In this document: positions 4,725 to 25,206 of the stretch, piece after piece | Position numbering within the stretch: the first letter of the stretch is position 1 | How the letters are laid out: each line of letters opens with the position of its first letter | IMG/VR virus record: IMGVR_UViG_3300025131_010687 | Coordinates: 1 to 27,862 of that record | Direction: 5' to 3' (one strand) | DNA length: 27,862 nt | From: a virus | Made by a program: the position numbers and the translations under genes | Notes under the pieces: generated by a model | Database searches by the model: none | What the model was told of the DNA's origin: nothing | Seen by the model: the letters and a program-made list of their open reading frames with translations, nothing else

Positions 4725-5117
4725 ATGGTTTGGAAAAAACGAAAAAAGTACTATGGTTTATATGAAAAGTATAGTATAATAAATAAATATAAGAAAGAAG
4801 ATAAGCTTAATAATAGTATATTAAATTATATTAACAATATTTCTTTAGAAGACCTTATAGCTATTAAGTTAGAATTATCAACAAGAATCTTAAGTGGTAA
4901 ATATTATGGTTTACCCTTATGGCATTCAATTCGTCATTTAACTGCTGATGCAATCCTAAAAACAGCAGTGAGTGTTTGTAGAACGAAGAGTGAAGCTTCT
5001 AGGTTTTTAGGAATGGATTATACAGATTTCCGAAAACTAATTAAAAAATATAAAACAGAATCATTTTTTGAAGATGAAAGGAATGGGGGCGAAACGGTTT
5101 CGACGGAGGACGAATAA
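4725..5117 (+). CDS. Fis-like helix-turn-helix protein overlapping the tmRNA
   Basis: This 130-residue basic protein has an AT-rich N-terminal coding part unlike its neighbours (for example 4741-4800 is about 18% GC). The N-terminus is Lys/Tyr rich. Residues about 80-110 (CRTKSEASRFLGMDYTDFRK) fit the C-terminal helix-turn-helix of Fis/HTH_8 proteins: a helix with Ala spacing, LGM turn and a recognition helix ending in Lys. Similar small proteins occur in marine T4-like phages. No Shine-Dalgarno sequence is obvious before the ATG at 4725, so the start is uncertain. The last 33 bases (11 codons) lie inside the tmRNA, which starts at 5085, so transcript processing would cut the message. A role in DNA binding or transcription is inferred. 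Confidence 0.65.
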   Translation: MVWKKRKKYYGLYEKYSIINKYKKEDKLNNSILNYINNISLEDLIAIKLELSTRILSGKYYGLPLWHSIRHLTADAILKTAVSVCRTKSEASRFLGMDYTDFRKLIKKYKTESFFEDERNGGETVSTEDE

Positions 5118-5464
5118 AATAGCGTGCAAAACTGTGTGGGTAACACAGTAAAAATACTCAAACTTTATAAATGCCAACGATAACGTTGAATTTGATTTTG
5201 CCTTAGCGGCTTAATCGGAAGTTGTTAATAGCTTTCTTAAAAAATATTAACCGTTTTCAATTTTCAGAAAAATTGGTGGTGCGCGCAGTAGGTATTTGGT
5301 CATTTTTATGACTATATATTTTCGGCAGCCAGCGCCATGAGCTGGTGAATGGATTCCCTGACCTTGGTCGGGTGGTTGGTGCTTAGGCGGTTCATGCACC
5401 TACTTTTGTGAATGACGGTATTTCTGCAGTTTTTCGGACCCGGGTTCGACTCCCGGCGCCTCCA
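5085..5464 (+). ncRNA. ssrA: Transfer-messenger RNA (tmRNA), one-piece
   Basis: The 5' end GGGGGCG pairs with the 3' CGCCTCC (one G-U), forming the acceptor stem. GGTTTCGACGG follows it, as in bacterial tmRNA. The 3' end has a T-arm CCGGG-TTCGACT-CCCGG preceded by TTTTTCGGA, very close to the E. coli tmRNA end. A is the discriminator at 5464. CCA is not encoded (CTT follows). The tag reading frame runs from GCC at 5173 to TAA at 5212-5214 and encodes ANDNVEFDFALAA, ending in the ALAA recognised by ClpXP-type proteases. The stem ACTGTGT/ACACAGT lies upstream of the tag. The length is about 380 bases, close to the usual 350-400. Its function is rescue of stalled ribosomes together with host SmpB. 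No smpB is visible here. Confidence 0.96.
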
Positions 5465-5511
5465 CTTAATTAACTTTCTACTAATTATATTATATTCCAA
5501 GGAGATTTGTT

Positions 5512-6636
5512 ATGACAGATGACATTGAAAATGTAGAGGAAGGTGCACAGCCAGAAGAGACGCCAACAGCGGAAAGTTGGGATCTTCCGGACGATGCTCC
5601 ATTTGGCCTAGACGATTTTGATTTCGTAGAGGCTTATGACGACGAGCCGTCCGAGGACGACCGCATGCTAGGAGAAAACACCGCGCCCAGCGCAATTAAT
5701 TGTGCATTTATCGGCGTCGGTGGCGGCGGCGGAAAGATGGCCAAAGCCTTTTTGGATTTAGGCTTTAATAAAACTCTTTTAATCAACACGACTGCAAAGG
5801 ATCAGCCTACGGGTGTACCTGCAGAAAATTTTCTTTTAATCCCCGGCGCCGATGGCGTAGCTAAAGACATTAAGCTCGGTAAAGAAGTTTTAGGCGATAA
5901 TAGCACTTTTGTGGAAGATGCTTTACGCACACGAATTGGTAAAGTAGATTGGATTTTTGTATTAGCTGGTGGAGGCGGCGGCACCGGAAGTGCGAGTTCC
6001 GTGTTGCATGATTGTATTACACGTTATTTAACCTCAATTGAGGCCGAAGGTAAAGTTATTTATATTACGAGTAAGCCCAGCGCGCAAGAACTTTTGAACC
6101 CTACTATTAAAAATAATTGCCAGTCGCTTTTCAAAGACATCCATAATCATCCGCACATTGTCATTGACAATGAAAAACAACTCCAATTATTACGCGGTAA
6201 AGTGGGAATGTTGAATATGTATCCAGCCGCTAATAGAAATTTTGCAAAGTTATTAGCCCAAGTTTTAAAGCTGGCTAACGAGCCCTCTCCTATTCAGGCG
6301 TTTGATTCCAAGGATTTGGAAAGATGTTTGCGCACTGGTGGAAGAATGTTGTTAGGCAGTACAGTTGCACGAGATGTTTCTGCTCATGATTTAGGGGCAA
6401 ATGTGTTTCAAGGGTGCCTCCGTTCTTCTCCGTGCCCTCCCCCTACGCGCAACCCAAAAACGGGAGTATTGCTTTTAATTGTGACACCTGAAATGGGAGA
6501 TGATCCGCGAGTGAGTAATCGCTTAGAAGCGGCTTTTTCTTATGTGGGTGGTCGCACCGAAACATTATTTTCCGGGGTGTATGTTGCACCCCGTCTTCCT
6601 GGTTTAATTGCCTTAACGCTTTTAGGCGGAATGTAG
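5512..6636 (+). CDS. FtsZ/tubulin-like GTPase
   Basis: This 374-residue protein has a strong ribosome binding site (AAGGAG at 5499-5504) 47 bases after the tmRNA. Residues 1-60 are an acidic extension. The tubulin-superfamily nucleotide fold follows: GVGGGGGKM (68-76, first glycine loop), NTTAKD (92-97) and the signature LAGGGGGTGSAS (151-162), preceded by VDWIFV as in FtsZ. A T7-loop-like segment, IQAFDSKDLERCLRTGG (261-277), precedes MLLGS, aligning with the FtsZ stretch that ends in GMAMMGSG. The family forms GTP-dependent filaments. Phage members (PhuZ, TubZ) position DNA or the phage nucleus, and host-like FtsZ copies could interfere with division. The sequence looks closer to FtsZ than to PhuZ by eye. 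The precise role is unknown. Confidence 0.88.
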   Translation: MTDDIENVEEGAQPEETPTAESWDLPDDAPFGLDDFDFVEAYDDEPSEDDRMLGENTAPSAINCAFIGVGGGGGKMAKAFLDLGFNKTLLINTTAKDQPTGVPAENFLLIPGADGVAKDIKLGKEVLGDNSTFVEDALRTRIGKVDWIFVLAGGGGGTGSASSVLHDCITRYLTSIEAEGKVIYITSKPSAQELLNPTIKNNCQSLFKDIHNHPHIVIDNEKQLQLLRGKVGMLNMYPAANRNFAKLLAQVLKLANEPSPIQAFDSKDLERCLRTGGRMLLGSTVARDVSAHDLGANVFQGCLRSSPCPPPTRNPKTGVLLLIVTPEMGDDPRVSNRLEAAFSYVGGRTETLFSGVYVAPRLPGLIALTLLGGM

Positions 6637-11695: not shown

Positions 11696-12478
11696 ATGAC
11701 CCACATCTCATATTCCGAATTAAAAGAGTGGACCGTGTGTCCATGGAAGCACAAATTAAATTACATTGATAGGATCAATGAATTTAAAGGAAACGAACAT
11801 ACAGCATTTGGCACCAGCATGCATACTGTATGTGAACATTTAGTTTCAGATGGCAAATTAGAGTCGACTGATTTTTTTGATAAAGAGTTTGTGAAAAATC
11901 TTTCCACTATTAAAGAAAAAGACCCCAATATCGTTTTTAAGAAAGATTTAGTGGAACAGATGAGAGTACAAGGAGTGGCGCTCATCAAACATGTGCTCCC
12001 TGCTCTTCGCTCGTATTTTAGAAAGTTTGAGTTAATTTCAATAGAAGAAAAATTATACACCCCGATTGCAGATCAAGAGTTTAATTTTAAGGGCTTTGTA
12101 GATCTAGTTGTAAAAACCTCAGACGGTAAATACCACGTGGTCGATTGGAAAACATGCTCTTGGGGGTGGGATAGTAGAAAAAAGAACGACAAGATGATAA
12201 CCTATCAGCTTACCCTCTATAAGCATTTTTGGAGTAAAAAACACAACGTTGACCCTAAAGACGTAATTACGCATTTTGCGTTGCTAAAGCGCACAGCGAA
12301 ACACCATCAAGTAGAATTATTTAAAGTTACTAGCGGCCAGAAAAAAACACAAAACGCTCTTAAACTCTTAAATAAAGCCATATATAATATTCAAAAAGCC
12401 AATTTCATTAAAAATAAATTAGCGTGTTATGGAAGATATGGCACGTGCGAATACTATAAAACAACCCATTGCCCTTAA
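11696..12478 (+). CDS. Cas4/RecB-like PD-(D/E)XK nuclease with four-cysteine cluster
   Basis: This 260-residue protein has the RecB-family nuclease order. ISYSELKEWTVCPWK gives C15, GTSMHTVCEHL (39-49) gives the conserved H43, KGFVDLVVK gives D136, VVDWKT gives D150 and K152, and QLTLY (171-175) is the QxxxY motif. C15 together with C244, C251 and C259 near the C-terminus forms the arrangement that binds an iron-sulfur cluster in Cas4 and AddB exonucleases. Cas4-like nucleases of this length occur in T4-like marine phages and act in DNA recombination or processing. The C-terminus overlaps the ribosome binding site of the first glycosyltransferase gene. There is no CRISPR array in the window. 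Confidence 0.88.
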   Translation: MTHISYSELKEWTVCPWKHKLNYIDRINEFKGNEHTAFGTSMHTVCEHLVSDGKLESTDFFDKEFVKNLSTIKEKDPNIVFKKDLVEQMRVQGVALIKHVLPALRSYFRKFELISIEEKLYTPIADQEFNFKGFVDLVVKTSDGKYHVVDWKTCSWGWDSRKKNDKMITYQLTLYKHFWSKKHNVDPKDVITHFALLKRTAKHHQVELFKVTSGQKKTQNALKLLNKAIYNIQKANFIKNKLACYGRYGTCEYYKTTHCP

Positions 12479-12486
12479 AGGTGACT

Positions 12487-13758
12487 ATGAATAAAAAAAT
12501 CAAACTCCTAACTTTAGGAGATATGCCGCTTTCTCCGAGCGGCGTGGGTACCCAAACCAAATACATTATTGAATCACTGTTGAGAACAGGCAAATATCAA
12601 GTAGTGAGTTTGGGCGGCGCTATTAAACACCCCAATCACAATCCTATTAAAACCGAAGAGTTTAAAGAAGATTGGGTGATTTATCCTGTGGATGGATATG
12701 GAAATCCTGACTTGGTAAGATCACTAATACGCAATGAAAGGCCCGACATTTTGTGGTTTATGACCGACCCTAGATTTTGGGCATGGCTATGGCAAATGGA
12801 AAACGAGATTAGACCCTTAATACCGATGCTCTATTATCATGTATGGGATAATTACCCCTATCCACACTATAATAAAGTGTTTTATGACTCTAATGACATG
12901 ATTGTGAGTATTTCCAAGCTCACCCAAGACATTGTAGAAACGGTGGCTCCTAGTGTCAAATCAGTGTATTTGCCTCATGCCGTTAATACGGAAGTATTCA
13001 CCCCGCGCGACCCTCATAGCGACGAGATAGAAACAGCCAAAAGAACTCTCTTTGGAGAAAGTTATGATCCGGACAAATTTACTTTTTTTTGGAACAATAG
13101 AAATGCTCGCCGCAAGCAAAGTGGATCTTTGATTTTTTGGTTCAAGGCTTTTTTAGACAAAGTAGGCCACGACAAAGCTTGCTTAGTGATGCACACTGAA
13201 ACAAGAGACCCACATGGCCAGGACCTTCAGGCTATAATTCAAGAGTTGGGACTAACGAACGGCGAAATATATTTTAGCCAGCACAAAGTGGATGCCGCAC
13301 AATTGGCCTTGATCTACAATATGATGGATTGTACCATCAATATATCCGATGCGGAAGGTTTTGGTTTAGCCACGTTGGAATCTCTAGCATCGGGAGTGCC
13401 TATTATTGTTAATATGACAGGGGGCCTTCAAGAACAAGTGACTGACGGTGAAAAATGGTTTGGTATTGGACTCTCCCCAACATCTAAAGCTATAATTGGT
13501 TCCCAAGAGATTCCTTATATATATGAAGATAGACTTTCGGAAGAAATAGTTGTACAAGCCTTATATGATATGTACACTAAATCGCCGGAAGAAAGAAAAA
13601 AACTAGGGGAGCAAGGCCGCCAGCACGTGCTTAAAAATTATAATTTCGAAAATTATGGGAAAGAGTGGGATAATATCTTAACTACGCTCTATGAGGAAGA
13701 GGGGTCATGGAATACTCGCAAACCTCACCAACGTTGGATATTTAAGGAGATAGTATGA
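12487..13758 (+). CDS. GT4-family glycosyltransferase
   Basis: This 423-residue protein starts at ATG 12487, with AAAGGTGA upstream. The N-terminal Rossmann domain begins KIKLLTLGDMPLSPSGVGTQ, with the glycine-rich acceptor loop of GT-B enzymes. The C-terminal domain carries the donor-binding block DAEGFGLATLESLASGVP, with the E-x7-E pair of GT4 retaining enzymes. The downstream TGGLQEQV fits the same family. It is the first of the sugar genes, directly after the nuclease, and its stop overlaps the next start (ATGA). Donor and acceptor cannot be read from sequence. Confidence 0.88.
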   Translation: MNKKIKLLTLGDMPLSPSGVGTQTKYIIESLLRTGKYQVVSLGGAIKHPNHNPIKTEEFKEDWVIYPVDGYGNPDLVRSLIRNERPDILWFMTDPRFWAWLWQMENEIRPLIPMLYYHVWDNYPYPHYNKVFYDSNDMIVSISKLTQDIVETVAPSVKSVYLPHAVNTEVFTPRDPHSDEIETAKRTLFGESYDPDKFTFFWNNRNARRKQSGSLIFWFKAFLDKVGHDKACLVMHTETRDPHGQDLQAIIQELGLTNGEIYFSQHKVDAAQLALIYNMMDCTINISDAEGFGLATLESLASGVPIIVNMTGGLQEQVTDGEKWFGIGLSPTSKAIIGSQEIPYIYEDRLSEEIVVQALYDMYTKSPEERKKLGEQGRQHVLKNYNFENYGKEWDNILTTLYEEEGSWNTRKPHQRWIFKEIV

Positions 13759-15776
13759 AAACTAAAGTAATAGTAAGGGCACCCGCCCTGACTCGTACCG
13801 GGTATGGAGAGCACGGCCGTTTTGTATTAAGAGCATTGCGCACAATGCAAGATGTTTTGGATATACATTTATTACCAGTTAATTGGGGAGCCTCTAATTG
13901 GATGTGGGAAGACACTGAGGAGCGCCGTTGGCTAGATGAGATCACGCATAAGACGGCCATTTATCACCAACAGGCTCAGCAAGCTGGCGTTCCCGTACAT
14001 TACGACATGAGTGTTCAAGTGACTATCCCCAATGAATGGCAGAAGATGGCTGCGATTAATATAGGCGTAACTGCCGGTATTGAGAGTACTAAAGTTGCCC
14101 CTGTGTGGCTAGAAAAAGCCAATGAAATGGATAAAATAGTTACCGTATCCCAACATTCCAAAAATGTTTTTTTAAATACAGCTTATGATGGAACCCACAA
14201 GCACACTGGCGAACCTTTGCGGCTCAAATGTACTACCCCTGTAGAAGTGGTACATTACCCCATTAAAGACTGCGACGCAACTCCTTTAAATTTCCAATGC
14301 TCTACTTCATTTAATTTTTTGACGATTGCACAATGGGGCCCTCGTAAAAATATAGATAACACGATTTGTTGGTTTGTAGAAGAATTTATCGATAATCCCG
14401 ATGTAGGACTGGTAGTGAAAGTGTTTGGAAAAGGAGGGTCTCTCATAGACCGGCAGACTTCCCAACGCCAATTAGAAGCACTCTTGGCACCGTATAAAAA
14501 TAGACAGTGTAAGGTTTATTTTTTACATGGTGATTTAAGCGAAGAAGAAATGCATGGTCTTTATAAACACCCGAGCATCAAGGCGTTTTTCTCGTTAAGC
14601 CATGGCGAAGGATTTGGGCTCCCGCATTTTGAAGCAGCATATTCTGGATTGCCTGTAATCGCTCCTGAGTGGAGTGGATATTTAGATTTCTTGTGCATGC
14701 CCAAAACGGATAAAAAAGGAAGAAGTCGCATTAAGCCACATTTTATTTCCGTTGATTATGAATTGTTACCCATTAACCAAGAGGCCCACTGGGAAGGAGT
14801 ACTAGAAAAGGATGCGATGTGGTGTTTTCCCACACAGGGATCATGTAAAATGAAATTGCGAGAAGTGGTCAAAGATTACGGCCGCTTTAAGAAACAAGCC
14901 AAAACCTTACAGAAATGGATCTTGCAAAATTTTCAGCCTAATGTTCAATATGAAAAACTCGTTTCGAGCGTAGTGGGAAATTTAAAGGCTACGCCGGAGC
15001 CATGGCTTCCTCCTCAAAGTATTGGGGGGGTGAGTTTTTGTATTCCAACAAATGGAAAAAGATCCGAAAAAACCGATTTAACTATTAAAAGTATTCAGAA
15101 CCAACCATGGGGCGAATTGCCTTATGAAATTATAGTATGCGGGGATGTGGAAAATTTTCAAAACTCTTCGGGTGCCAATATCGTTCTGGTGGAGAAGAAA
15201 GACGCATCCACCACCGGCCATGTGGCCACTTTGCGAAATGGCGCAGTCGACCATGCTCAATATGATACCATTGTATTTTGCGATGATGACATTTTGTTAG
15301 ATGCGGATTGGCTGGACGGCACAAGAGCCTATAACGAGAATAATGGCTGGCAGGTCTTAGGAAACGCTTTGCTCAACCCAGATGGTACTCGTCACTGGGA
15401 CCGTGCTTTATTGTCTCCGCATGTGTTGGTTAATTATAACCATCCAAGCACGGATAAAAATCTTATCCAAACATCAGGCTTTTTTATGATTCGACGTTCC
15501 CTCCACGAAATAGTGCAGTGGAACGAAGAGTGCTTTGTTTATGCTGATCGAGAGAATAAGGGCGTACCCGAAGATGTGCAGTATAGTTTAGATTTACACG
15601 CCCATAACATTCCTTTATCTTTTAATGATACAGTATGTGTGTGGCACAATGATGAGCGCTACACCCAGTTTAACAATCAAACATTATATAAAAATGTTAT
15701 TCCTGATCATCAAGAGCGAGGATTCTCTCCACTATTTGAACGGGCGACGATGGCGGCCACTTTCCAAAAGATATGA
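13755..15776 (+). CDS. Bifunctional GT4-GT2 glycosyltransferase
   Basis: This 673-residue protein is about twice the usual size, because two transferases are fused. The N-terminal GT-B part (1 to about 415) has AQWGPRKNIDN and the donor block HGEGFGLPHFEAAYSGLP (283-300). The C-terminal GT-A part starts near residue 425 with SFCIPTNGKRSEKTDLTIKS and has CDDDILLDADW around 505-515 as its DxD site. It then has SGFFMIRRSLHEIV and EDVQYSLDLHAHNIP, a GT2-type acceptor region. Such a fusion can add two successive sugars in one pass. AAGGAG lies before the ATG. The stop overlaps the next ATG. Confidence 0.87.
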   Translation: MKTKVIVRAPALTRTGYGEHGRFVLRALRTMQDVLDIHLLPVNWGASNWMWEDTEERRWLDEITHKTAIYHQQAQQAGVPVHYDMSVQVTIPNEWQKMAAINIGVTAGIESTKVAPVWLEKANEMDKIVTVSQHSKNVFLNTAYDGTHKHTGEPLRLKCTTPVEVVHYPIKDCDATPLNFQCSTSFNFLTIAQWGPRKNIDNTICWFVEEFIDNPDVGLVVKVFGKGGSLIDRQTSQRQLEALLAPYKNRQCKVYFLHGDLSEEEMHGLYKHPSIKAFFSLSHGEGFGLPHFEAAYSGLPVIAPEWSGYLDFLCMPKTDKKGRSRIKPHFISVDYELLPINQEAHWEGVLEKDAMWCFPTQGSCKMKLREVVKDYGRFKKQAKTLQKWILQNFQPNVQYEKLVSSVVGNLKATPEPWLPPQSIGGVSFCIPTNGKRSEKTDLTIKSIQNQPWGELPYEIIVCGDVENFQNSSGANIVLVEKKDASTTGHVATLRNGAVDHAQYDTIVFCDDDILLDADWLDGTRAYNENNGWQVLGNALLNPDGTRHWDRALLSPHVLVNYNHPSTDKNLIQTSGFFMIRRSLHEIVQWNEECFVYADRENKGVPEDVQYSLDLHAHNIPLSFNDTVCVWHNDERYTQFNNQTLYKNVIPDHQERGFSPLFERATMAATFQKI

Positions 15777-16549
15777 AATTATCTATTATAACCGCTGTTG
15801 GGCCCCTAAAGCACTATGAAAAATTTATTCCTCGATATATCGATAATGTAATGGCTCAAACTGTTTTTAGTGAATGCGAAATTATTGTAGTTTACATGGA
15901 ATGGGATGAGAAATTTACACAGTTAAATAAACTAAATAATGTTAAGTATATTCTTGACGACCAAGAAAAAGGCGCCTATAATGCTTGGAATATGGGAATC
16001 CAAGCTAGCAATGCACCCTATGTAACAAATTGGAATATTGACGACATTAGGCACCCCACTAGTTTGGAACGCCAAGCTACCATATTGGATAATAATTCTG
16101 ATATTGATTTAATCTACAATTATCACATGATAACTAATGATTGGGAAGAAACGTTTAAGAATCTTAATCCACACACAGAGCGGCATGTTAAATTTTATCC
16201 CGATGATGGACATGCAGTGGTCCATCAATGCTGCATGTGTGGACCAGATCCATTATGGAGGCGCGCCCTACACGATAAGGTAGGCTATTTTGATTATGAG
16301 AACTACCCTTCTATCGCGGATTGGGATATGTGGATTCGGATGGCCGACGCAGGGTGCAAGTTTAAACTTATTCCCTTACCACTGTGTCTTTTTTATGATG
16401 GTGATTCCAGCATTAGCCAACGTTTTCAATCTTCGCGAGAAGAAATAGAAAATAAAAAATTATACCAGCAGCACAAAGAGGGGTTTGATAACGTCTCTCC
16501 GGTTAAGTGGTCGATAGGACGCGTGTATATTAATGAAAAAAGTTATTAG
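15773..16549 (+). CDS. GT2-family glycosyltransferase
   Basis: This 258-residue protein begins MKLSIITAVGPLKHYEKFI, the first strand of GT-A fold GT2 enzymes. QEKGAYNAWNMGI precedes WNIDDIRHP (87-95), with D90-D91 in the nucleotide-sugar/metal site. ADWDMWIRMADAG (about 183-195) matches the GT2 acceptor/catalytic block, usually E/D-D-x-D. It overlaps the previous gene by ATGA and the next by 17 bases. No transmembrane segment is present, so it is soluble or loosely membrane associated. The sugar specificity is unknown. Confidence 0.87.
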   Translation: MKLSIITAVGPLKHYEKFIPRYIDNVMAQTVFSECEIIVVYMEWDEKFTQLNKLNNVKYILDDQEKGAYNAWNMGIQASNAPYVTNWNIDDIRHPTSLERQATILDNNSDIDLIYNYHMITNDWEETFKNLNPHTERHVKFYPDDGHAVVHQCCMCGPDPLWRRALHDKVGYFDYENYPSIADWDMWIRMADAGCKFKLIPLPLCLFYDGDSSISQRFQSSREEIENKKLYQQHKEGFDNVSPVKWSIGRVYINEKSY

Positions 16550-17186
16550 TTTTAGTTTGTGGGGCGACGATGAGAAATATACCATCGGCGCTATTCGCAA
16601 TGCACAATTGGCCTCCCAAGTATATCCTGAATGGGAAGCGCGCTTTTATTGTGGGACGTCAGTCCCCGTTTCTATCATAGATCAATTGCGCGAATTACAG
16701 GCCCATGTGATCATGATGGAAGAAGCAGGGGATTGGACTGGAATGTTCTGGCGCTTCCTCGCAATTGCCGACTCAGATGTAGAAATCATGATTTCGAGGG
16801 ACACTGATTCACGATTAAACACCAGAGAAAAAGCCGCAGTGGATGAATGGCTTGAAGGCCCCCAACTTTTTCATATTATGAGAGACCATCCATGGCATAA
16901 TGCCCCCATTTTAGGCGGAATGTGGGGCGCCCGCAAACCCTTGCTTCAGGACATGGCTCAGTTAATAGCCGAATATCAAAAAGGAGATTTTTGGCAAGTA
17001 GATCAAAATTTTCTAAGAGAAGTGGTAGCTCCTCGGGTCGAACATACTTTACATATTCATGATGAATTTTTTTCACGGAGTCCTTTTCCTACGGCTCGCA
17101 ATGGTGATGAATTTGTAGGACAGGTATTTGACGAAAGTGAACAAACCATCCAAGAACATATCGAGATTTTAAGGAGATATTTATGA
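16533..17186 (+). CDS. GT-A-like glycosyltransferase with RDTDSR motif
   Basis: This 217-residue protein starts KKVISFSLWGDDEKYTIGAI. It has GMFWRF (70-75), ISRDTDSRLNTRE (87-99, a DxD-type metal site) and ILGGMWGAR (about 126-134). The set is characteristic of a small family seen in capsule and phage sugar clusters. I have no enzyme characterisation in mind for it. It is annotated as glycosyltransferase-like from the DxD site and the genomic context. Its start lies within the last 17 bases of the GT2 gene. Confidence 0.75.
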   Translation: MKKVISFSLWGDDEKYTIGAIRNAQLASQVYPEWEARFYCGTSVPVSIIDQLRELQAHVIMMEEAGDWTGMFWRFLAIADSDVEIMISRDTDSRLNTREKAAVDEWLEGPQLFHIMRDHPWHNAPILGGMWGARKPLLQDMAQLIAEYQKGDFWQVDQNFLREVVAPRVEHTLHIHDEFFSRSPFPTARNGDEFVGQVFDESEQTIQEHIEILRRYL

Positions 17187-17842
17187 AACATGAACCCTAT
17201 GAATTATGGTGGGAAAATAATTTGGGAAAATCCTATGACCATGCAGGCACCCAACACGAAGCTCCCGATGAAGATGGGTTTATAACGTGGATGGGAGATC
17301 CTTTTGCTATGGATCGCCAACAGGTAAGGAGACTCCTAGATCCCAATATTAAAACATTTTTGGATGTGGGTTGCGGTGCGGCCCCCGAGTATATCGGACT
17401 GCAGCAGAGCCACCCCGACATTGAATACCATGGCGTCGATATTACTCCACGTTTAGTTTCGTATTGCACCAATAAGGGAATTGATGTGGTTTTTGGCACG
17501 GCGCGAAATCTGCCCTTTGATGATGCATCGATGGATGCTGTACATGCGCGCCATGTTCTAGAGCACATGGCAGATTTTAAAGAACCCTTAGCAGAATTCA
17601 TTAGAGTGGCCCGCCAAAAGGTTTATATAGCTTTTTTCATTTCTCCCATTTTAAGCCCCACCAGTCGCATTACTGATATATCACAATTGGACATTCCTTG
17701 TTATAATAATGCATATAGTTTGTCGGAAATAAAAGATTTTTTAGCGAGTAGCACTAAAGTAAAAAGCTATGAATGGTATAGTTTGGGAGGGCATAGTAAA
17801 TGTTTGCTATCCATAGATATAATAGATATAAAGAAAGCGTAA
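17183..17842 (+). CDS. Class I SAM-dependent methyltransferase
   Basis: This 219-residue protein overlaps the previous gene by ATGA and has AAGGAG before its start. Motif I is FLDVGCG (59-65), GVDIT (84-88) holds the acidic ribose-binding residue, NLPFDDASMD (109-118) is motif II/III and HVLEHM (124-129) is typical of Methyltransf_11 enzymes. Within the sugar cluster it probably methylates a sugar hydroxyl or a lipid-linked glycan, but this is inferred from location. A 60-base gap follows, containing only the next gene's ribosome binding site. Confidence 0.88.
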   Translation: MKHEPYELWWENNLGKSYDHAGTQHEAPDEDGFITWMGDPFAMDRQQVRRLLDPNIKTFLDVGCGAAPEYIGLQQSHPDIEYHGVDITPRLVSYCTNKGIDVVFGTARNLPFDDASMDAVHARHVLEHMADFKEPLAEFIRVARQKVYIAFFISPILSPTSRITDISQLDIPCYNNAYSLSEIKDFLASSTKVKSYEWYSLGGHSKCLLSIDIIDIKKA

Positions 17843-17902
17843 GCTGAATATTCAATACCCTCGCACTGTGTGAACAGCAACGAAAGAGAAGGAGTTATTA
17901 AA

Positions 17903-18445
17903 ATGATAAATGGACAAACGAGATTCGTGTTAGACGAACTGGCACAAGAAGGTATCAAATCCGTCTTAAATATAGGATTCAGATATGATTCAGATAAAAC
18001 TGTTAGAGATTCGGTTCACTCTAGGGGAGGAACTTTTTCTGTTTTAGAAGCGTATGGGCCTAATTGCGCAGATATGCGTATAAAAAATACTGCGGATACT
18101 GTGTATGAAAAAGATGTGCGAAACATTGCGGAGTTAGATGCGGAGTGGGATGCTATTATTTGGCTTCATGGTCCCGAACATGTTTATTGGAATGAATTTG
18201 TGGAGATACGAGAAGAGATTGAGAAAAAAGCTAAAAAACTTGTGCTCTATCAAGCTCCCATTGGAGAATATCCTCAAGACGCTCTTTATGGCAACCCATA
18301 TGAAAAACATGTGGAGGCCCTAACCCCAGAAATGTTCTGGCACCTTGGATATGAAATAGTAGTCCACAATGGTAAAAAAACCCATGCGTATGATTTTGTT
18401 GAAGGAGAGTTGACGTTTTCCGCGGTACACAGAGTGGAGGGTTAA
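17903..18445 (+). CDS. Methyltransferase-like protein
   Basis: This 180-residue protein starts at ATG 17903, with AAGGAG at 17889-17894. A GTG at 17870 in frame would put that site inside the coding region. It reads as a degenerate class I methyltransferase. SVLNIGFRYD occupies the place of motif I, EAYGPNCADM the acidic second strand, and DAIIWLHGPEHVYW the place of the usual HxxEH block. NIGFRYD lacks the classical GxG glycines, so SAM binding may be altered. A small class of such proteins occurs next to phage glycosyltransferases. A sugar-modifying role is inferred. Confidence 0.7.
   Translation: MINGQTRFVLDELAQEGIKSVLNIGFRYDSDKTVRDSVHSRGGTFSVLEAYGPNCADMRIKNTADTVYEKDVRNIAELDAEWDAIIWLHGPEHVYWNEFVEIREEIEKKAKKLVLYQAPIGEYPQDALYGNPYEKHVEALTPEMFWHLGYEIVVHNGKKTHAYDFVEGELTFSAVHRVEG
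18436..18440 (+). promoter_or_regulatory. Strong ribosome binding site for a TTG start
   Basis: GGAGG lies five bases before TTG 18446, inside the end of the previous coding region. It decides the start of the following glycosyltransferase gene, which has no ATG at this position. Confidence 0.7.
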
Positions 18446-19300
18446 TTGTCAAAACTTTTAATAATTCAAGAAAATGGTCGTCATGACGCCAATCGTCATA
18501 TGCGAGAGTGTTTTTCACTTCAACATGGGCTCGCTTCGCATGGTATCGAATCGATTATTTGGGGTCTCGGCCACGACAATTTCTCTATTCCTTTTGAAGA
18601 TATAGTTGCAGATTGTGATGCCATCTTATCAATTGAGAATTATGATACCGGGTGGATGCCAAGCTTGGCCGACATAAAAAAAACCAAGTTGTTTTGGAGC
18701 ATCGACTCTCATTGTGCGCTTCGACAACATCAACATTTTTGCCACCATGCTAAAATTGATATTCTTTTGAACTCTACGCCTCATTATAATCAATTTTATT
18801 CTAATTTAGTTAAAAAACGAGTGTGGTTTCCCAATGCAGTGGATTTAAGATGGTTTAGCCCGTTGGAGTGCGAAAAAAAGCACGATGTAGGGTTTTGCGG
18901 AAGCTTGATTCACGATAGAAAACAGTGGCTTAACACCATTCACCAGCAACTACCAGTACGCGTGGGTACGGGAATATTAGGCCGCGCAATGATTGAAGAG
19001 GTTAATTCTTATCGGGTGTCACTTAATAAGTCAATTGATATAGACATACCATATAGAGTTTTTGAGATGACGGCATGCCGCTTACCTTTGGTGACAAATT
19101 ATGTTCCCAACTTGGAGAGACTCTATGAACTGGGAAAAGAAATCGAAGTATATCAAACAGTTGAGGAATTGATTGCGACGACGACACGATTATTAGAAAA
19201 CGAGGAAGAGCGCCACGCATTGGCGCAAGCGGGATATGCTCGCACATTAAGAGACCATAACTATGAAATACGAGCGCGTCAATTAGTGGGACTTTTTTAA
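18446..19300 (+). CDS. CgeB-like GT-B glycosyltransferase (TTG start)
   Basis: This 284-residue protein starts with TTG directly after the previous stop, supported by GGAGG. The fold is GT-B with an N-terminal strand KLLIIQENGRHD and the C-terminal block PYRVFEMTACRLPLVTNYV (202-220), then YARTLRDHNYEIRARQLV (264-281). That pair is the signature of CgeB/Glyco_trans_1_2 glycosyltransferases. DVGFCGSL (147-154) starts the second domain. At 284 residues it is shorter than usual GT-B enzymes, so the N-terminal domain is reduced. Its stop TAA overlaps the next ATG by one base. Confidence 0.83.
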   Translation: MSKLLIIQENGRHDANRHMRECFSLQHGLASHGIESIIWGLGHDNFSIPFEDIVADCDAILSIENYDTGWMPSLADIKKTKLFWSIDSHCALRQHQHFCHHAKIDILLNSTPHYNQFYSNLVKKRVWFPNAVDLRWFSPLECEKKHDVGFCGSLIHDRKQWLNTIHQQLPVRVGTGILGRAMIEEVNSYRVSLNKSIDIDIPYRVFEMTACRLPLVTNYVPNLERLYELGKEIEVYQTVEELIATTTRLLENEEERHALAQAGYARTLRDHNYEIRARQLVGLF

Positions 19301-20103
19301 TGCCAGACTTTCATATTCAAGAAATATCTCATTTCGCCGAGGATGCACATTATTCATCCTCTTTGTTAGCCGTTCAACATCATATGGGCCTAGGCGATCA
19401 TATACATTTATCCGGGCTCGTGCGCTATACAGTGGTGGAATTGGGTTTCGAGGAAGTGCTTTTGTTTTGCAAAGAAGTTTATTATCAAACAATGACTAGG
19501 CTTTATGCGGACGACGAACGGATAACAGTAGTATCAGTGGGAGACATTTATGGAGGCTTGTCGGAAACTGGTTTAGTAAGAAAACACCTTGAAAGTCTTG
19601 GCAGATCGTGTGTTTATCTGCGCTTAGGCTTTGAGCGCTATCCCGGGCAACTAGCTAACAAATTTGGCTATCCGAGTTTCATTTTTTATGATTTGGCTTG
19701 TATTTCTCGCGACGTACGATGGGAATATTTTAAATTTTCACGCAACCGTCGCGAAGAAAGCCGCCTTTATAAAAAATTGAATCCAAAGGACGTCCCTTAT
19801 ATTTTTGTACATGATGACCCATCTCGCGGCTTTAATATCCCCCTTGAAAGAGTGCTAAAAGCCTCCCCTTTTGCGGACGACAAGCTAGTAATTCGAAATG
19901 ACATGTCCGAAAATATATTAGATTTTGGCGCTATTTTAGAGAATTCCGCGGAGATTCATTGTATGGGGAGCGCTCTATTTTGTTTGGCGGATATGTTATC
20001 TCTAGAGCATCCAAGTTGTTTTTATCACAATATCCGGCCCGTATTCTCTGAATCAGAAATATTACACCAGGACACTCGAAACGAATGGAGTTGGGTACCG
20101 TAA
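19300..20103 (+). CDS. Putative GT-B-like glycosyltransferase
   Basis: This 267-residue protein has HHMGLGDHIHLSGLVR (27-42). The MGLGDxIxxxGLVR loop is the acceptor-side glycine loop seen in small GT-B-like proteins of viral and bacterial sugar clusters, related in style to heptosyltransferase/GT9 enzymes. Near the end, EIHCMGSALFCLADML resembles the donor-side ExxxxSxxxxxAxxL segment. The middle part has basic residues (KFSRNRREES). The family is recognised mainly by these two blocks, so the exact class is uncertain. Confidence 0.6.
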   Translation: MPDFHIQEISHFAEDAHYSSSLLAVQHHMGLGDHIHLSGLVRYTVVELGFEEVLLFCKEVYYQTMTRLYADDERITVVSVGDIYGGLSETGLVRKHLESLGRSCVYLRLGFERYPGQLANKFGYPSFIFYDLACISRDVRWEYFKFSRNRREESRLYKKLNPKDVPYIFVHDDPSRGFNIPLERVLKASPFADDKLVIRNDMSENILDFGAILENSAEIHCMGSALFCLADMLSLEHPSCFYHNIRPVFSESEILHQDTRNEWSWVP

Positions 20104-20540
20104 TGGAGAAGCTACTTCAAATAGACGAAGGAAACAAGTCGTTGATCGAAGAGTTTCAGCGGACAGCCGGTTCCTCGTTAAAAACATTTAGATATTTTGA
20201 ATCTCGGCCGGTGGACATCATCCAACAGCACTTGATAACATATATTATGACAGGTGAAAGTGGCGAAATCATCGGCTATGGCCATTTAGACCTGGAAGAC
20301 AACGTTGTCTGGCTTGGAATATGTATAGTAGAAACTCAGTTGCGTTCCGGTTACGGGAAAAAAATGATGAAGGCTTTAATCGCTTTTGCTGATAACAACT
20401 CTGTTCAGACGATCACTTTGTCGGTTGACAAAAAAAACGAAGCAGCGTACGCGCTATATAAAAGCTTAGGCTTCCAGAGAACCGGTCATGATAAAACAGT
20501 GTACTTTATGAAATTAGAATTAGGAGAAACAGATGGCTGA
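20103..20540 (+). CDS. GNAT-family N-acetyltransferase
   Basis: This 145-residue protein starts at ATG 20103, overlapping the previous TAA. An ATG at 20085 in frame lies inside the previous gene. Motif A, LRSGYGKKMM (80-89), is the acetyl-CoA pyrophosphate loop (R/Q-xx-G-x-G/A). NEAAYALYKSLGF (112-124) is motif B of GNAT enzymes. In this cluster the obvious amine substrate would be an amino sugar such as perosamine, giving an N-acyl derivative, but the acceptor is inferred. It overlaps the next gene by eight bases. Confidence 0.85.
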   Translation: MEKLLQIDEGNKSLIEEFQRTAGSSLKTFRYFESRPVDIIQQHLITYIMTGESGEIIGYGHLDLEDNVVWLGICIVETQLRSGYGKKMMKALIAFADNNSVQTITLSVDKKNEAAYALYKSLGFQRTGHDKTVYFMKLELGETDG

Positions 20541-20841
20541 TACATTGGGCGGTTTAATTGATAAACTAATCACGGTTGATATGAAGATGTGGAATAATCA
20601 GGAATTTCTTTATGAGGTAAGGAAAATGAGCTTTAAAGAATTTGAAAAAAAGTTTACCACCACGGAAAATGCACGAAATGAACTGTTTGAGTCTATAAAA
20701 AAATGCTGCGATCTAAACGCACAAAGAAATCAACTCATTGATGAGGTAGATGAAAAAATTGTAGAAATGATGGGAGCTTATATCGCGGGGAAAGACTTAG
20801 ATGACGGAAAATACATTCAACGCAAACACAAGACCTATTAG
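20533..20841 (+). CDS. Small helical protein, unknown function
   Basis: This 102-residue protein starts within the end of the acetyltransferase gene, after TTAGGAGAA. The N-terminus TLGGLIDKLITVDMKMWNNQ resembles small all-helical proteins, sometimes named DUF4254-like, that often lie in glycosyltransferase clusters. The rest is charged and helical (KEFEKKFTTTENARNELFES, NQLIDEVDEKI). I cannot state a reaction. It may be a partner or regulator of a neighbouring sugar enzyme. Confidence 0.65.
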   Translation: MADTLGGLIDKLITVDMKMWNNQEFLYEVRKMSFKEFEKKFTTTENARNELFESIKKCCDLNAQRNQLIDEVDEKIVEMMGAYIAGKDLDDGKYIQRKHKTY

Positions 20842-20856
20842 GACAAAACACACGAA

Positions 20857-21531
20857 ATGAAAAAATGTTTTTATATACGTATAACTAAAAATGCCTGTCA
20901 AACGGTTTTTCATTTGTTTAAGAATGAAAGGGGCTTCATAAATCCCCATGCAGGCCCTACCCCGTATTATCGTAGTCCGATTGATGAATCTTTGGCACGC
21001 GAGAAAGATCGCAATTTATATCCTTTTGATTTTGAGCGGAGTGATGTGATTACGTTTAGTTTTGTGCGCAATCCTTATGATCGTGCCGTTTCTTCTTGGA
21101 AACATAGTCTTCGGGAAAACTGGACCACGTTGAAGTTTTTGGATTATTTAAAAAGGCTCCCGGCGTTAATTCCAGCCCAATCGGATTCTTTGAATGACAA
21201 TGATTATGCAATTAGACGCCATACAATGCCTCAATACCAATGGCTCAGTAATCAAGGGGGAGAGTATATTGTAGATTTTATTGGGCGGGTGGAGCACTTA
21301 ACTGAACATGTACGCTTTTTTGGAAAAAAAATGGGGATGGAAACTTTTCCTTCTTCGCTGGGGCGACTTAACTCTTCGCGCCCTGTCAATGATGGGTATG
21401 TTAAATATTATTCCTCTGAAGAAAAAAAATATGTAGAAGAAATTTATGGAAGGGATATCCATCAATTTGGATATGAGTTTGGCGCCCCCGAGCCGTCAAG
21501 TGTTTGTTACTCGCGCCTAGGAGGAGAATAA
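20857..21531 (+). CDS. PAPS-dependent sulfotransferase (Sulfotransfer_2-like)
   Basis: This 224-residue protein has FYIRITKNACQTV at its start, in the place of the 5'-phosphosulfate-binding loop (usual form IPKxGxTS, here ITKNACQT with K11). FSFVRNPYDRAVSSW (68-81) is the 3'-phosphate-binding block with R71 and S79. DFIGRVEHL follows in the usual position. These are the marks of Golgi-type carbohydrate sulfotransferase-like enzymes. They move sulfate from PAPS to a sugar hydroxyl. The APS kinase at 25199-25933 would supply PAPS. The upstream ribosome binding site is weak (AGGA, 14 bases away). Confidence 0.83.
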   Translation: MKKCFYIRITKNACQTVFHLFKNERGFINPHAGPTPYYRSPIDESLAREKDRNLYPFDFERSDVITFSFVRNPYDRAVSSWKHSLRENWTTLKFLDYLKRLPALIPAQSDSLNDNDYAIRRHTMPQYQWLSNQGGEYIVDFIGRVEHLTEHVRFFGKKMGMETFPSSLGRLNSSRPVNDGYVKYYSSEEKKYVEEIYGRDIHQFGYEFGAPEPSSVCYSRLGGE

Positions 21532-21538
21532 GAGAAAT

Positions 21539-22774
21539 ATGACTATGCGAATTCCCGCTGCTTGTGTCGTACATGAGCTAGGATATGTGGTGTTAGACGA
21601 TGAAACGAGAAAAGCCTATCGTGTGGTCACACACCCAGTGTTCGAGTTTATAACTTCAGAGGCTTATAAGAAGAAAGAAAATGAATATTGGCCAGCAACG
21701 CGACCCGTTTCTGTGACTCATGAATTATTTAAAGATGATGCCACTTACAAAACTGTTGAAGTGGACTACGTGGATCATATGGTATATTGGCCCGAAATGT
21801 CCGCGCGGGATATTAAAATGTGTCTTTTGTTTTTGTGTGATGTTTCAAAATATTTGGCGCAAAACAATTTGTGTTTGGGATCCCACATGTGGAATATTAC
21901 ATTGACCGGTGGACGCCCCCTTCTTATAGATTTAGGTGATTTTTTTCATGGCGTAAACAAACAATATGTTTATCGCACCATCGTTAGTCATCTAGTTCCT
22001 CCTTTCACGGATAATCATACCCCTTTGCGTCCCGAAAAATGGATGACAAACTATGATGAAATATTGGTTCAAATAAAGAACATTGAGGGTCTGGTTCGAA
22101 CACCGTCAGCCAGCGGCGTTCAAATTGCCGAAGAATTAAAACGTTGCTTGTCCAATATTATCCCTCGCGAAGCTTCCCATATTTGGGATAGTTATCCGGC
22201 ACAAAAAAAGATGCCCACTGACATTGAAACTTTAGAAAGTTACGCCCAGAACATGCGTCCCAATTTGTGCGCTAGGATTAAGCAAAAAGCCCCCCAGACC
22301 CTTTTGGATTTGGGCTGCGCGCGAGGATTGTATTCTCTTTTCGCTGCAATTCAGGGCGCTTCGGTAGTAGGTCTTGATTATAGCCATGAAATGATAGGGG
22401 ACGCCAATCAGAAAAGTGCCGCTTTAAAATTAAAATGCCACTTTGCTTTCATAGATTTGCTTGACATTAAAAAATGGGGGTTAGGAGGCGGTTATGGAGA
22501 TTGTCTATCACGCTTTAAAAGCGATGCGGTTATCGCCCCCGCGTTGATTCACCACGTGCATGGGAAAAATAAACCTCTCGAAATATTGATCACGGAGTGG
22601 GCAAACGCCGCCACGCAATGGATTATGGTAGAGTATATTCCTCTCGATGTTAATAATCAACCAATCGACTTAAACACGATAACGGACACTTTACATGACC
22701 TAGGATTTAAAAATATAGATATATTGAATTCTCATCCTGCCCCTAGGAAGTGGATTTTTGCAGAAAAGACTTAA
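21539..22774 (+). CDS. Kinase-like domain fused to SAM methyltransferase (NoeA-like)
   Basis: This 411-residue protein has two parts. The N-terminal 190 residues carry GSHMWNITLTGGRPLLIDLG (114-133), which matches the HxxN...D-x-G pattern of kinase-like folds. H116, W118, N119 and D131 are visible, and this form (HxWN...VxxD.G) is found next to methyltransferases such as the nodulation protein NoeA. The C-terminal domain has motif I LLDLGCARG (255-263), VVGLDYS (276-282) and a motif IV-like AVIAPALIHHVHG. AGGAGGAG lies 12 bases before the ATG. A second in-frame ATG is at 21545. It probably methylates a glycan. The role of the kinase-like part is unknown. Confidence 0.82.
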   Translation: MTMRIPAACVVHELGYVVLDDETRKAYRVVTHPVFEFITSEAYKKKENEYWPATRPVSVTHELFKDDATYKTVEVDYVDHMVYWPEMSARDIKMCLLFLCDVSKYLAQNNLCLGSHMWNITLTGGRPLLIDLGDFFHGVNKQYVYRTIVSHLVPPFTDNHTPLRPEKWMTNYDEILVQIKNIEGLVRTPSASGVQIAEELKRCLSNIIPREASHIWDSYPAQKKMPTDIETLESYAQNMRPNLCARIKQKAPQTLLDLGCARGLYSLFAAIQGASVVGLDYSHEMIGDANQKSAALKLKCHFAFIDLLDIKKWGLGGGYGDCLSRFKSDAVIAPALIHHVHGKNKPLEILITEWANAATQWIMVEYIPLDVNNQPIDLNTITDTLHDLGFKNIDILNSHPAPRKWIFAEKT

Positions 22775-22787
22775 AGATATTTGACTT

Positions 22788-23888
22788 ATGATTCCTATTT
22801 ATAAACCTTATTTGCCTTCTCACTCGCTGAGACATGCGCATGCCGCGATTGACTCTACGTGGATCTCTTTTAACGGCCCATACGTGGAGCGCGCAACAGA
22901 GAAGTTGCGCGAATTATTAGGAGTGAAATATGTCCAGCTTGTCAACAATGGCACCGCAGCTACTCATTTAGTAGCGAAAGGGCTTTTTTATAAGCATCCC
23001 AATATCACTAAAGTTATTGTACCTAATAATGTGTATGTCGCTGCATGGAATGCTTTTGTTTATGATAAAAACTTTGATCTTGTGCCCATCGATGCTGATG
23101 TGGCAACCTGGAATATGAACATCGAGGCCGCAAGTCATTTATTAGATGACAATAATACAGCGCTGTACGCGGTACATAATTTAGGCAATACAATTAACAT
23201 TCCGGCACTTAAGCGTAGATTTGGGAAGTGCGTCTTTGTAGAAGATAATTGCGAAGGGTTTATGGGAACCTACGAAGGAAAGTATTCTGGTACCGAATCT
23301 TTGGCCTCTTCAGTGTCTTTTTTTGGCAATAAAACAATCACTTCAGGAGAGGGCGGCGCCGTTATTACCAACGATGAAGACGTTTTTAAACATGTCAAAT
23401 CCGTTCACGGCCAAGGACAGGCACCAACTAAAAAATACATTCATGATAGACTTGGCCATAACTATAGAATGACAAATGTGCAAGCTGCGATTTTATTAGG
23501 CCAGTTAGAAATCTTACCAGAAATTTTAGAAAAGAAGAAGAATATATTTGATTTTTACAAAAAAGAATTTGCTCTGATGAGAAATGTTGAAGTTCAACAA
23601 GTCGAAGAGGGGTGCACTCCTTCCAACTGGATGATGGGAGTGCGCCTACGATCTAGGGGAGGTTACGCCTCTTTGCAGAATTTTCTCGCTGATAAGGGCA
23701 TTGACTCACGACCGATGTTTTATCCCATGTCTTCGCACTCTCATTTGAAACATGTTGCTTCCCCCACCAGGGAAAAGGGGGCTAAAATACTTCACAAAGA
23801 GGGTGCAATTCTCCCCTCCTTCCCTGAATTAACGCATAATGAACTTGTCCACATTGTGGCTTCTATTGAGGAATACGCCAACAAATGA
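22788..23888 (+). CDS. DegT/DnrJ/EryC1/StrS aminotransferase, GDP-perosamine synthase-like
   Basis: This 366-residue PLP enzyme of normal length has VNNGTAATHL (52-61) as phosphate-binding region, VEDNCEG (151-157) with D153 and SFFGNKTITSGEGGAV (177-192) with K182 as the internal aldimine lysine. SFFGNKTIT(T/S)GEGG is the typical sequence of GDP-4-keto-6-deoxymannose 4-aminotransferase (Per/RfbE). GDP-mannose 4,6-dehydratase, which makes its substrate, is encoded by the next gene, with ATGA overlap. The combination points to GDP-perosamine. The family also includes other sugar aminotransferases, so the exact product needs a test. HNYRMTNVQAAILLGQLE is the usual downstream conserved block. 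Confidence 0.87.
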   Translation: MIPIYKPYLPSHSLRHAHAAIDSTWISFNGPYVERATEKLRELLGVKYVQLVNNGTAATHLVAKGLFYKHPNITKVIVPNNVYVAAWNAFVYDKNFDLVPIDADVATWNMNIEAASHLLDDNNTALYAVHNLGNTINIPALKRRFGKCVFVEDNCEGFMGTYEGKYSGTESLASSVSFFGNKTITSGEGGAVITNDEDVFKHVKSVHGQGQAPTKKYIHDRLGHNYRMTNVQAAILLGQLEILPEILEKKKNIFDFYKKEFALMRNVEVQQVEEGCTPSNWMMGVRLRSRGGYASLQNFLADKGIDSRPMFYPMSSHSHLKHVASPTREKGAKILHKEGAILPSFPELTHNELVHIVASIEEYANK

Positions 23889-24856
23889 AAGCGATAATAA
23901 CCGGAGTAACAGGACAAGATGGGTCATATTTGGCGGAATTGTTATTAAAAAAAGGCTATGAGGTGATCGGATTAAAAAGGCGCTCTTCCACTATTTGTAC
24001 CGAGCGTATCGATCCCATTTACGAGCATCCTAACTTCTATTTGCGTTATTTTAATTTAAACGATAGTGGGTGTTTTTGGAGACTTTTGCTGGAATATCAA
24101 CCGGATGAAGTGTACAATTTGGGGGCCCAATCTCATGTGAAAGTCTCTTTCGAAACTCCCGAAGAAACCGTGAAGAGCATCGCTTTGGGAACTTTGCGCC
24201 AACTAGAAGCTATTCGTACGATCAATCCGGCCATTCGCTTCTATCAAGCCTCTTCCTCTGAGATGTTTGGAATTAATGTAAATTATCCTTATAACGAGGA
24301 ATCGGTTTCGATCCCAGCTTCCCCCTATGCATGTGCTAAAGTATTTGCGCACAATTTAGTTAAAAATTATAGAGCTAGTTATGGGCTTTATGCGTGTAGT
24401 GGTATTCTTTTCAACCATGAATCGCCCCGTCGAGGCGAAACCTTCGTCACTCGGAAAATTTCCTTAGCTGCAGCTAAAATTAAATTAGGACTACAGGATA
24501 AATTATATTTGGGGAACTTAGAAGGAAAGCGAGATTGGGGATTTGCAGGAGATTATGTAGAAGCAATGTGGCTCATGATGCAGCAACAACATCCCGAAGA
24601 TTTTGTTATTGCCACGGGCATAATGAAGTCTGTACAAGATTTTGTAGAATGCGTTTTTGATTATGCTAAACTGGACTATAAAAAATATGTGGCAGTTGAT
24701 GATCAGCTGAAACGTCCCCAAGAGGTACCGGCTCTACAAGGTGATTATTCTAAGGCCCAAAAAATATTGAAATGGGGCCCTCGCGTTACTTTTGAGGAAT
24801 TAGCAGTGATGATGTATGAATCGGACTTACAAAAGCTACAAAGGAAGACGAGATGA
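23885..24856 (+). CDS. gmd: GDP-mannose 4,6-dehydratase
   Basis: This 323-residue SDR enzyme is slightly shorter than bacterial Gmd (about 345-370). TGVTGQDGSYL (6-16) is the Gxx(G)xxG NAD(P)-binding loop. KRRSSTICTERID (31-43) is the Gmd-type NADP phosphate block. QASSSEMFG (121-129) carries S125 and E126, and SPYACAK (146-152) is the YxxxK pair Y148/K152. NHESPRRGETFVTRKI (177-192) is a diagnostic Gmd block. It converts GDP-mannose to GDP-4-keto-6-deoxy-mannose, which the neighbouring aminotransferase can aminate. Its start overlaps the aminotransferase stop (ATGA), supporting one pathway. Confidence 0.93.
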   Translation: MKAIITGVTGQDGSYLAELLLKKGYEVIGLKRRSSTICTERIDPIYEHPNFYLRYFNLNDSGCFWRLLLEYQPDEVYNLGAQSHVKVSFETPEETVKSIALGTLRQLEAIRTINPAIRFYQASSSEMFGINVNYPYNEESVSIPASPYACAKVFAHNLVKNYRASYGLYACSGILFNHESPRRGETFVTRKISLAAAKIKLGLQDKLYLGNLEGKRDWGFAGDYVEAMWLMMQQQHPEDFVIATGIMKSVQDFVECVFDYAKLDYKKYVAVDDQLKRPQEVPALQGDYSKAQKILKWGPRVTFEELAVMMYESDLQKLQRKTR

Positions 24857-25206
24857 GTGTTGAAATGAAAGAAATTTCCTATGAAATTAAAAAGAATACA
24901 ATTGCTATTGATTTTGATGGCGTTTTACATCAATATTCTAAAGGGTGGCAAGGGCTGTACAATGCTTATGACCCGCCTATGAAAGGGGCCGTTGCGGCCA
25001 TTAAAAAACTGAAAGCCTCTGGCTATCGTCTGGTGATTTTTTCTAGTCGGGCAGTCCCGGTGATCCAAGAGTGGCTTCACAAATATGATTTAGATGATTG
25101 TTTCGAAGAGGTCACAAACACTAAAATCCCAGCCCGTGTTTATATAGATGATCGTGCTTATCATTTCGACACATGGGAAAAAACGATGGAGGACTTGTTT
25201 GATTGA
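24853..25206 (+). CDS. HAD-like phosphatase
   Basis: This 117-residue small HAD protein is without a cap domain. IAIDFDGVLHQ (17-27) is motif I with D20 and D22, VIFSSRAVPV (61-70) is motif II, K91 is in the KIPARVYIDDRAYHFD stretch, and D99/D100 are motif IV. Such small HAD proteins are frequent in T4-like phages. It overlaps the gmd stop (ATGA). Its end contains the ribosome binding site for the APS kinase gene. A sugar-phosphate or nucleotide substrate is possible. None can be read from the sequence. Confidence 0.85.
   Translation: MSVEMKEISYEIKKNTIAIDFDGVLHQYSKGWQGLYNAYDPPMKGAVAAIKKLKASGYRLVIFSSRAVPVIQEWLHKYDLDDCFEEVTNTKIPARVYIDDRAYHFDTWEKTMEDLFD
25188..25193 (+). promoter_or_regulatory. 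Strong ribosome binding site for a TTG start
   Basis: GGAGGA lies five bases before TTG 25199 within the end of the HAD gene. It favours TTG over the in-frame ATG at 25148 as start of the APS kinase gene, because the longer reading would make only out-of-frame HAD sequence. Confidence 0.7.

Follow-up and report, generated by a model that had tools for sequence, protein, structure and literature searches.

A stretch of phage DNA that carries a tmRNA, with the preceding gene ending inside the RNA, raises the question whether this tmRNA is functional and what its arrangement means for the phage. We analyzed the locus in the window, i.e. the whole stretch of 27,862 nucleotides, a virus record of 27.9 kb that has an identical stretch of 16.5 kb in common with the 73.9-kb contig of locus L002. 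Relatives were gathered via the downstream tubulin gene, the tag and the upstream gene; they are uncultured contigs, possibly fragments, the largest of which has 284 kb. The reading at which we arrive, with a probability of roughly 85%, is that of a functional one-piece tmRNA which a clade of large tailed marine phages would have carried for a long time. Conservation at the sequence level extends to its fold, its alanine identity elements, the frame of the tag and the position of the gene.

Identity and structure of the tmRNA

The following features were assigned to the RNA:

5085..5464, plus strand: one-piece tmRNA (ssrA), mature RNA without encoded CCA (ARAGORN, Rfam RF00023)
5085..5091, plus strand: acceptor stem, 5' strand GGGGGCG, third pair G.U (sequence; 38/38 relatives)
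5132..5159, plus strand: pseudoknot PK1, 5132-5137/5143-5148 and 5138-5142/5155-5159 (covariation, 27 sequences)
5173..5214, plus strand: tag reading frame ANDNVEFDFALAA and stop (ARAGORN; conserved tag end)
5218..5251, plus strand: pseudoknot PK2, 5218-5222/5231-5235 and 5224-5230/5245-5251 (geometric search, covariation)
5440..5456, plus strand: T-arm CCGGG-TTCGACT-CCCGG (5/5 pairs, 38/38 relatives)
5457..5464, plus strand: acceptor stem, 3' strand CGCCUCC, and discriminator A5464, followed by CTT (sequence)

ARAGORN called a one-piece tmRNA at 5085-5465 on the plus strand with the tag ANDNVEFDFALAA. The Rfam model RF00023 matched 5085-5467 over its full length (model positions 1-374) with 105 bits (E=2.5e-40; gathering score 47). 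Folded as a single sequence, the RNA had a minimum free energy 3.1 sd below dinucleotide shuffles and beat all 100 of them. The gene order was standard, not circularly permuted, in the window tmRNA and in all relatives.

Within the tRNA-like domain the acceptor stem (5085-5091/5457-5463) consisted of seven pairs, and the pair G5087.U5461 corresponds to G3.U70. A G.U at the third acceptor pair is the identity element recognised by alanyl-tRNA synthetase (AlaRS). The T-stem (5440-5444/5452-5456) was completely paired. All 38 distinct related viral tmRNAs shared the seven acceptor pairs, G3.U70, the discriminator A and the five T-stem pairs, and compensated stem changes such as GGGGACG/CGTCTCC and TTGGG/CCCAA were found among them.

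Both pseudoknots are supported by compensatory changes among the relatives. In PK1, located 5' of the tag, the second (knot) helix was paired in 100% of cells across 27 sequences, with two-sided changes at four of its five pairs; with the partner strand offset by one to three columns, the total pairing fell from 95% to 20-55%. PK2 was detected between tag and T-arm in 48 of 49 tmRNAs by a geometric search. In 12 sequences of equal length 98.6% of its cells were paired, and 8 of 12 pairs showed two-sided changes. The region of PK3 and PK4 was about 70 nt shorter in some relatives (L006, L007).

An earlier note, made from the letters of this DNA, had described a complete one-piece tmRNA at 5085-5464 with acceptor stem, T-arm and tag frame intact. 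ARAGORN, the fold, the covariation of PK1 and PK2, the stems of the 38 relatives and the Rfam search, which the note had suggested and which scored well over the gathering threshold, bear out this description. As counter-evidence it had named a low covariance score or the lack of pseudoknots between tag and T-arm; since PK2 is present with compensatory pairing and the score reached 105 bits, neither was encountered. Judged by these elements, the window tmRNA is neither a chance match nor a degenerate copy.

The earlier note was also right that the CCA end is not encoded, because A5464 is followed by CTT; CCA thus has to be added to the window tmRNA. Yet 30 of the 57 related tmRNAs, a set consisting of one-piece forms throughout, do encode CCA, so that the dependence on CCA addition would be a local loss. 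No member of the phage CCA/poly(A) polymerase family was found in the window.

Tag peptide

The tag ended in A-L/I/M/V-A-A or RLAA in nearly all relatives and mostly in ALAA (59 distinct tmRNAs), while the remaining sequence drifted inside the clade (ANDNVEF/Y/V.., ANNNN..LAA, ANTDTYSEYALAA). A conserved hydrophobic end is what would be expected of a proteolysis signal.

A separate observation concerns the tmRNA at L024:9521-9923, which scored highest with Rfam among the tubulin-linked tmRNAs (134.5). Its tag frame contains an insert of about 65-70 nt, from which an apparent 36-aa tag, ANDVSLATPWFSLKDRTGYVPVQLLDEASEAVAYVN, without the LAA end results. This insert tag was found in only one viral contig.

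Phage clade and origin

The tmRNA was present in all seven related contigs of more than 160 kb, and six of the seven, relatives of 166-284 kb, carried a terminase. Together with the virus record itself and the fixed gene neighbourhood in the near-identical contig and the relatives, this agrees with the earlier claim that the RNA is phage-encoded. By these genomic contexts, the tmRNA belongs to a group of large tailed, apparently marine, uncultured phages.

The look-up of smpB which the earlier note had proposed was carried out in 50 related viral records, possibly fragments, and yielded no smpB; the control was positive in 10 bacteria. The window is a fragment, so that a missing smpB there proves nothing. 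As no phage smpB was found, the tmRNA would depend on host SmpB. A rescue factor of the RF-1/ArfB type was found in none of 33 records. ClpP-family genes, such as that at G052:C1:171960-172460, were seen in seven of seven related contigs above 160 kb, with two in some of them. Such a phage gene may encode a capsid protease and is thus not claimed here as the protease of the tag.

A recent capture of a bacterial ssrA, left behind for example by imprecise prophage excision, has to be considered, since ssrA commonly serves as prophage attachment site and such an origin has been proposed for the tmRNA of phage Melnitz (PMC9004378). For the window tmRNA we regard it as extremely unlikely. The RNA is spread over a diverse clade in a fixed context. 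A degenerate tag pattern matched 44 viral contigs but nothing in the collected bacterial and archaeal genomes, in a scan run without positive control; a pattern for the 5' domain, likewise scanned without positive control, had no match in the bacterial genome collection. The comparison with bacterial tags by which the earlier note had hoped to find the donor lineage thus consisted of this pattern scan (no positive control) and pointed to no donor. Its view that simple capture of a permuted alphaproteobacterial ssrA is not the origin fits the relatives, which are all one-piece, and the lack of bacterial matches to tag and 5' domain in these scans without positive control. With moderate confidence, these patterns argue against a recent copy of any sampled bacterial ssrA. 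Because the context is fixed across a diverse clade and these scans without positive control gave no bacterial match, the tmRNA seems to have long been part of the phages rather than to be a recent capture.

The upstream gene and its neighbourhood

The tmRNA is flanked by two genes, the first of which runs into it:

4725..5117, plus strand: upstream gene for a Fis-like HTH protein of 130 aa; its stop falls 33 nt into the tmRNA
5085..5117, plus strand: overlap of the CDS (GGETVSTEDE*) with the tmRNA 5' end
5512..6636, plus strand: downstream tubulin/FtsZ-superfamily protein

Thirty homologues of the upstream protein could be aligned at 34-75% identity, and 14 of them matched the HTH_8 (Fis-type) model weakly. 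Fis chains were at the top of the PDB profile and fold searches, each match being weak alone. The AlphaFold model comprises six helices and is confident from 18 to 119, with a tail from 120 that is predicted to be disordered. A match to phrog_4374 ('carboxypeptidase') reached 20 bits in 2 of the 30 members, and HTH_8 (14/30) was preferred.

Considering the 80 nearest homologues of the upstream gene in viral contigs, ARAGORN located a same-strand tmRNA up to about 400 nt further downstream at no fewer than 51 loci, to which Rfam added those at L168 and L180. The pairing of gene and tmRNA persisted where the upstream protein was only 40-47% identical. The 25 loci without tmRNA formed a single subclade in the upstream-gene tree, in which L168, L180 and L198 are wrongly labelled 'no tmRNA'. 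In nine contigs of this subclade, of up to 138 kb, the tmRNA was absent throughout. This absence is a secondary loss, and the tmRNA is thus dispensable in some phages. L137-L157 and their relatives keep the Fis-HTH-like gene without the tmRNA, and the tail of the protein again ends at a normal stop.

The tubulin gene is probably co-transcribed with the tmRNA. Its product carries the motif GGGGGTGS and was found at 70 IMG/VR loci; the model fold matched FtsZ, CetZ and TubZ (E ~1e-19). No similarity to the upstream gene or, by tblastn, to the tubulin was detectable in 50,697 phage records. The gene product represents a divergent phage tubulin family of uncultured large phages. Further downstream, at 12469-25933, the window contains a run of glycosyltransferase, methyltransferase, acetyltransferase, sulfotransferase, aminotransferase and nucleotide-sugar epimerase genes, which suggests the synthesis of a surface glycan or virion glycan.

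A coding sequence that ends inside the tmRNA

The reading frame of the upstream gene stays open up to the tmRNA and past its 5' end; the stop codon lies at 5115-5117, 33 nt inside the RNA. Whereas the earlier note was right about the tmRNA itself, it had missed this frame. The overlap was common to 20 of the 80 loci (15 distinct tmRNAs), all in one subclade that includes the window. In each of these loci G1 of the tmRNA fell on codon position 1 and the stop was 33 or 39 nt inside the tmRNA. The spacer from the conserved FFE to G1 measured one, two, three or four codons and was always in frame. According to the tree, the overlap of this gene has one main origin, in a clade that also holds the tmRNA-less subclade; at L164 a gap between gene and tmRNA was regained inside the overlap clade.

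In the loci without overlap the upstream gene ended 35-400 nt before the tmRNA, and in seven of them a near-consensus sigma70 promoter (TTGACA-17-TATACT type) preceded the RNA. Such a promoter was found in none of 12 overlap loci, and in the subclade of the window no recognisable promoter was present in the 85 nt preceding the tmRNA. As the stop is inside the tmRNA and a recognisable promoter is missing, upstream gene and tmRNA probably share one transcript. In four loci (L012, L013, L107 and L110) upstream gene and tmRNA are separated by a conserved leader that contains an inverted repeat (GTTGGTGTGAAGAACCAACAC type); this leader occurs in loci without the sigma70-type promoter.

The same layout was found with two unrelated genes in lineages with ANNNN tags. 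In L181, L188 and L194 a DUF2061 membrane protein takes the upstream position (31.5 bits for L188, cut-off 23.1), and in L115, L182 and L187 a small 'IWLEDE' protein. A CDS ran into 21 of 59 tmRNAs, whereas the control, 32 tRNA genes of the same loci, showed one genuine CDS and two tRNA-cluster artefacts. The loci are related, so that the overlaps count as three independent events and not as 21. In a search of the open-access literature we came across no description of a CDS whose end lies within a tmRNA. Phage tmRNAs themselves are already known, and it is the CDS-into-tmRNA arrangement that is new here.

The leading alternative to a regulatory role of the overlap itself, and one that we consider rather probable, is genome compaction only: a deletion would have taken spacer and stop, and the resulting tail was tolerated. 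In agreement with this, the tail encoded by the tmRNA follows the constraint on the RNA, with the acceptor pair deciding whether its second residue is G or D, and the tail is predicted to be disordered (pLDDT <50 at 120-130). The single main origin of the upstream-gene overlap and the one true CDS that runs into a tRNA (in L223, where a ClpP-family gene ends inside a tRNA-Ile gene) point in the same direction. Against compaction alone stand the retention of the overlap across 15 distinct tmRNAs, with spacers of four lengths that all preserve the frame, and the fact that the same architecture arose with the DUF2061 and the 'IWLEDE' protein genes.

Proposed function

Ordinary trans-translation run by the phage is the best-supported working mode on the elements conserved. 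PMC3985003 describes tmRNA 5' ends as made by RNase P and tmRNA as charged with alanine. In the window RNase P would accordingly trim the 5' end, the host CCA enzyme would complete the 3' end and host AlaRS would charge the RNA. Together with host SmpB and EF-Tu, the tmRNA would then release, in the course of infection, ribosomes that have stalled on broken messages, and the resulting fragments would receive the degradation tag for a ClpXP-type protease. Both roles put forward in the earlier note, the freeing of ribosomes and the targeting to ClpXP, are plausible.

A different role would be that of a decoy or competitor which binds host SmpB or enters ribosomes and so inhibits or redirects host trans-translation. 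Phages that carry tRNA-like fragments of tmRNA are known (DS6A), and inhibition of tmRNA by a similar molecule has been described (PMC4131195); moreover, with no phage smpB found, the RNA must compete for host SmpB. However, a decoy needs the tRNA-like domain only, whereas here the tag frame and both PK1 and PK2 have been preserved as well, through compensatory changes, and we regard this role as very unlikely.

Beyond trans-translation, the overlap may have a consequence for the upstream gene. On a shared transcript the cut at 5085 would take away the stop codon and leave a nonstop upstream message that keeps the whole folded domain and would be a substrate of the same tmRNA. The layout, with the stop of the upstream ORF 3' of the predicted RNase P cut, is in accordance with the nonstop type known from arfA. 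Tentatively, the tmRNA could thus act as a built-in switch in which RNase P maturation cuts the message of the upstream DNA-binding protein, a regulator, within the ORF and the nonstop protein is tagged and destroyed, though we think this improbable on balance. If it were true, a given transcript would serve as source of the regulator or of the tmRNA but not of both, and the regulator would remain once the rescue capacity is overwhelmed, so that the phage could sense ribosome stalling. While the overlap itself is observed directly, its selection for the nonstop consequence is hypothetical, with similarly low odds.

Comparison with known systems

The window tmRNA shares acceptor stem, G3.U70, T-arm, PK1, tag frame, PK2 and domain order with the bacterial one-piece tmRNA (RF00023). 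It differs in being phage-borne, without linked smpB and with a 5' end that overlaps a CDS, and its tag type ANDNVEF/Y.ALAA was not found in bacterial genomes by a pattern search run without positive control.

Phage tmRNAs have been known from mycobacteriophages (Bxz1 group) and Bacillus phage G (PMC4131195) and from huge phages, in some together with SmpB (PMC7162821). A survey detected tmRNA in 402 of 18,146 phage genomes (~2%), and only 2.5% of the one-piece phage tmRNAs in it were marine (PMC9004378); a whole, apparently marine, one-piece clade thus adds to this picture. A complete one-piece tmRNA in a phage genome is common to the window, the Bxz1 group, phage G, Streptomyces phage StarPlatinum and the huge phages. 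Unlike some huge phages, the relatives of the window had no SmpB (50 records). In StarPlatinum the tmRNA begins 21 nt after the preceding CDS without overlap, whereas the two overlap in the window. The ssrA of Melnitz and the pelagimyophages is likewise a marine phage tmRNA and is thought to act early in infection, but it is two-piece (permuted) and has a glutamine riboswitch, in contrast to the one-piece window tmRNA (PMC9004378). Phage tmRNAs are usually treated as curiosities of unclear use. Here a diverse clade has retained the RNA, complete in its functional elements, together with a single partner gene, which argues for a selected phage tool.

The closest parallel to the overlap is arfA of E. 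coli, where a cut by RNase III inside the ORF results in a nonstop message that is repressed by trans-translation (PMC10107115). As predicted from the sequence layout, the upstream message of the window would likewise become nonstop through RNA cleavage. In contrast to arfA, the predicted cut is the tmRNA's own 5' maturation by RNase P, and the upstream gene is not a rescue factor. The recurrent overlap of CDS and tmRNA may represent a new kind of regulation, with a rescue RNA that produces a substrate for itself as it matures.
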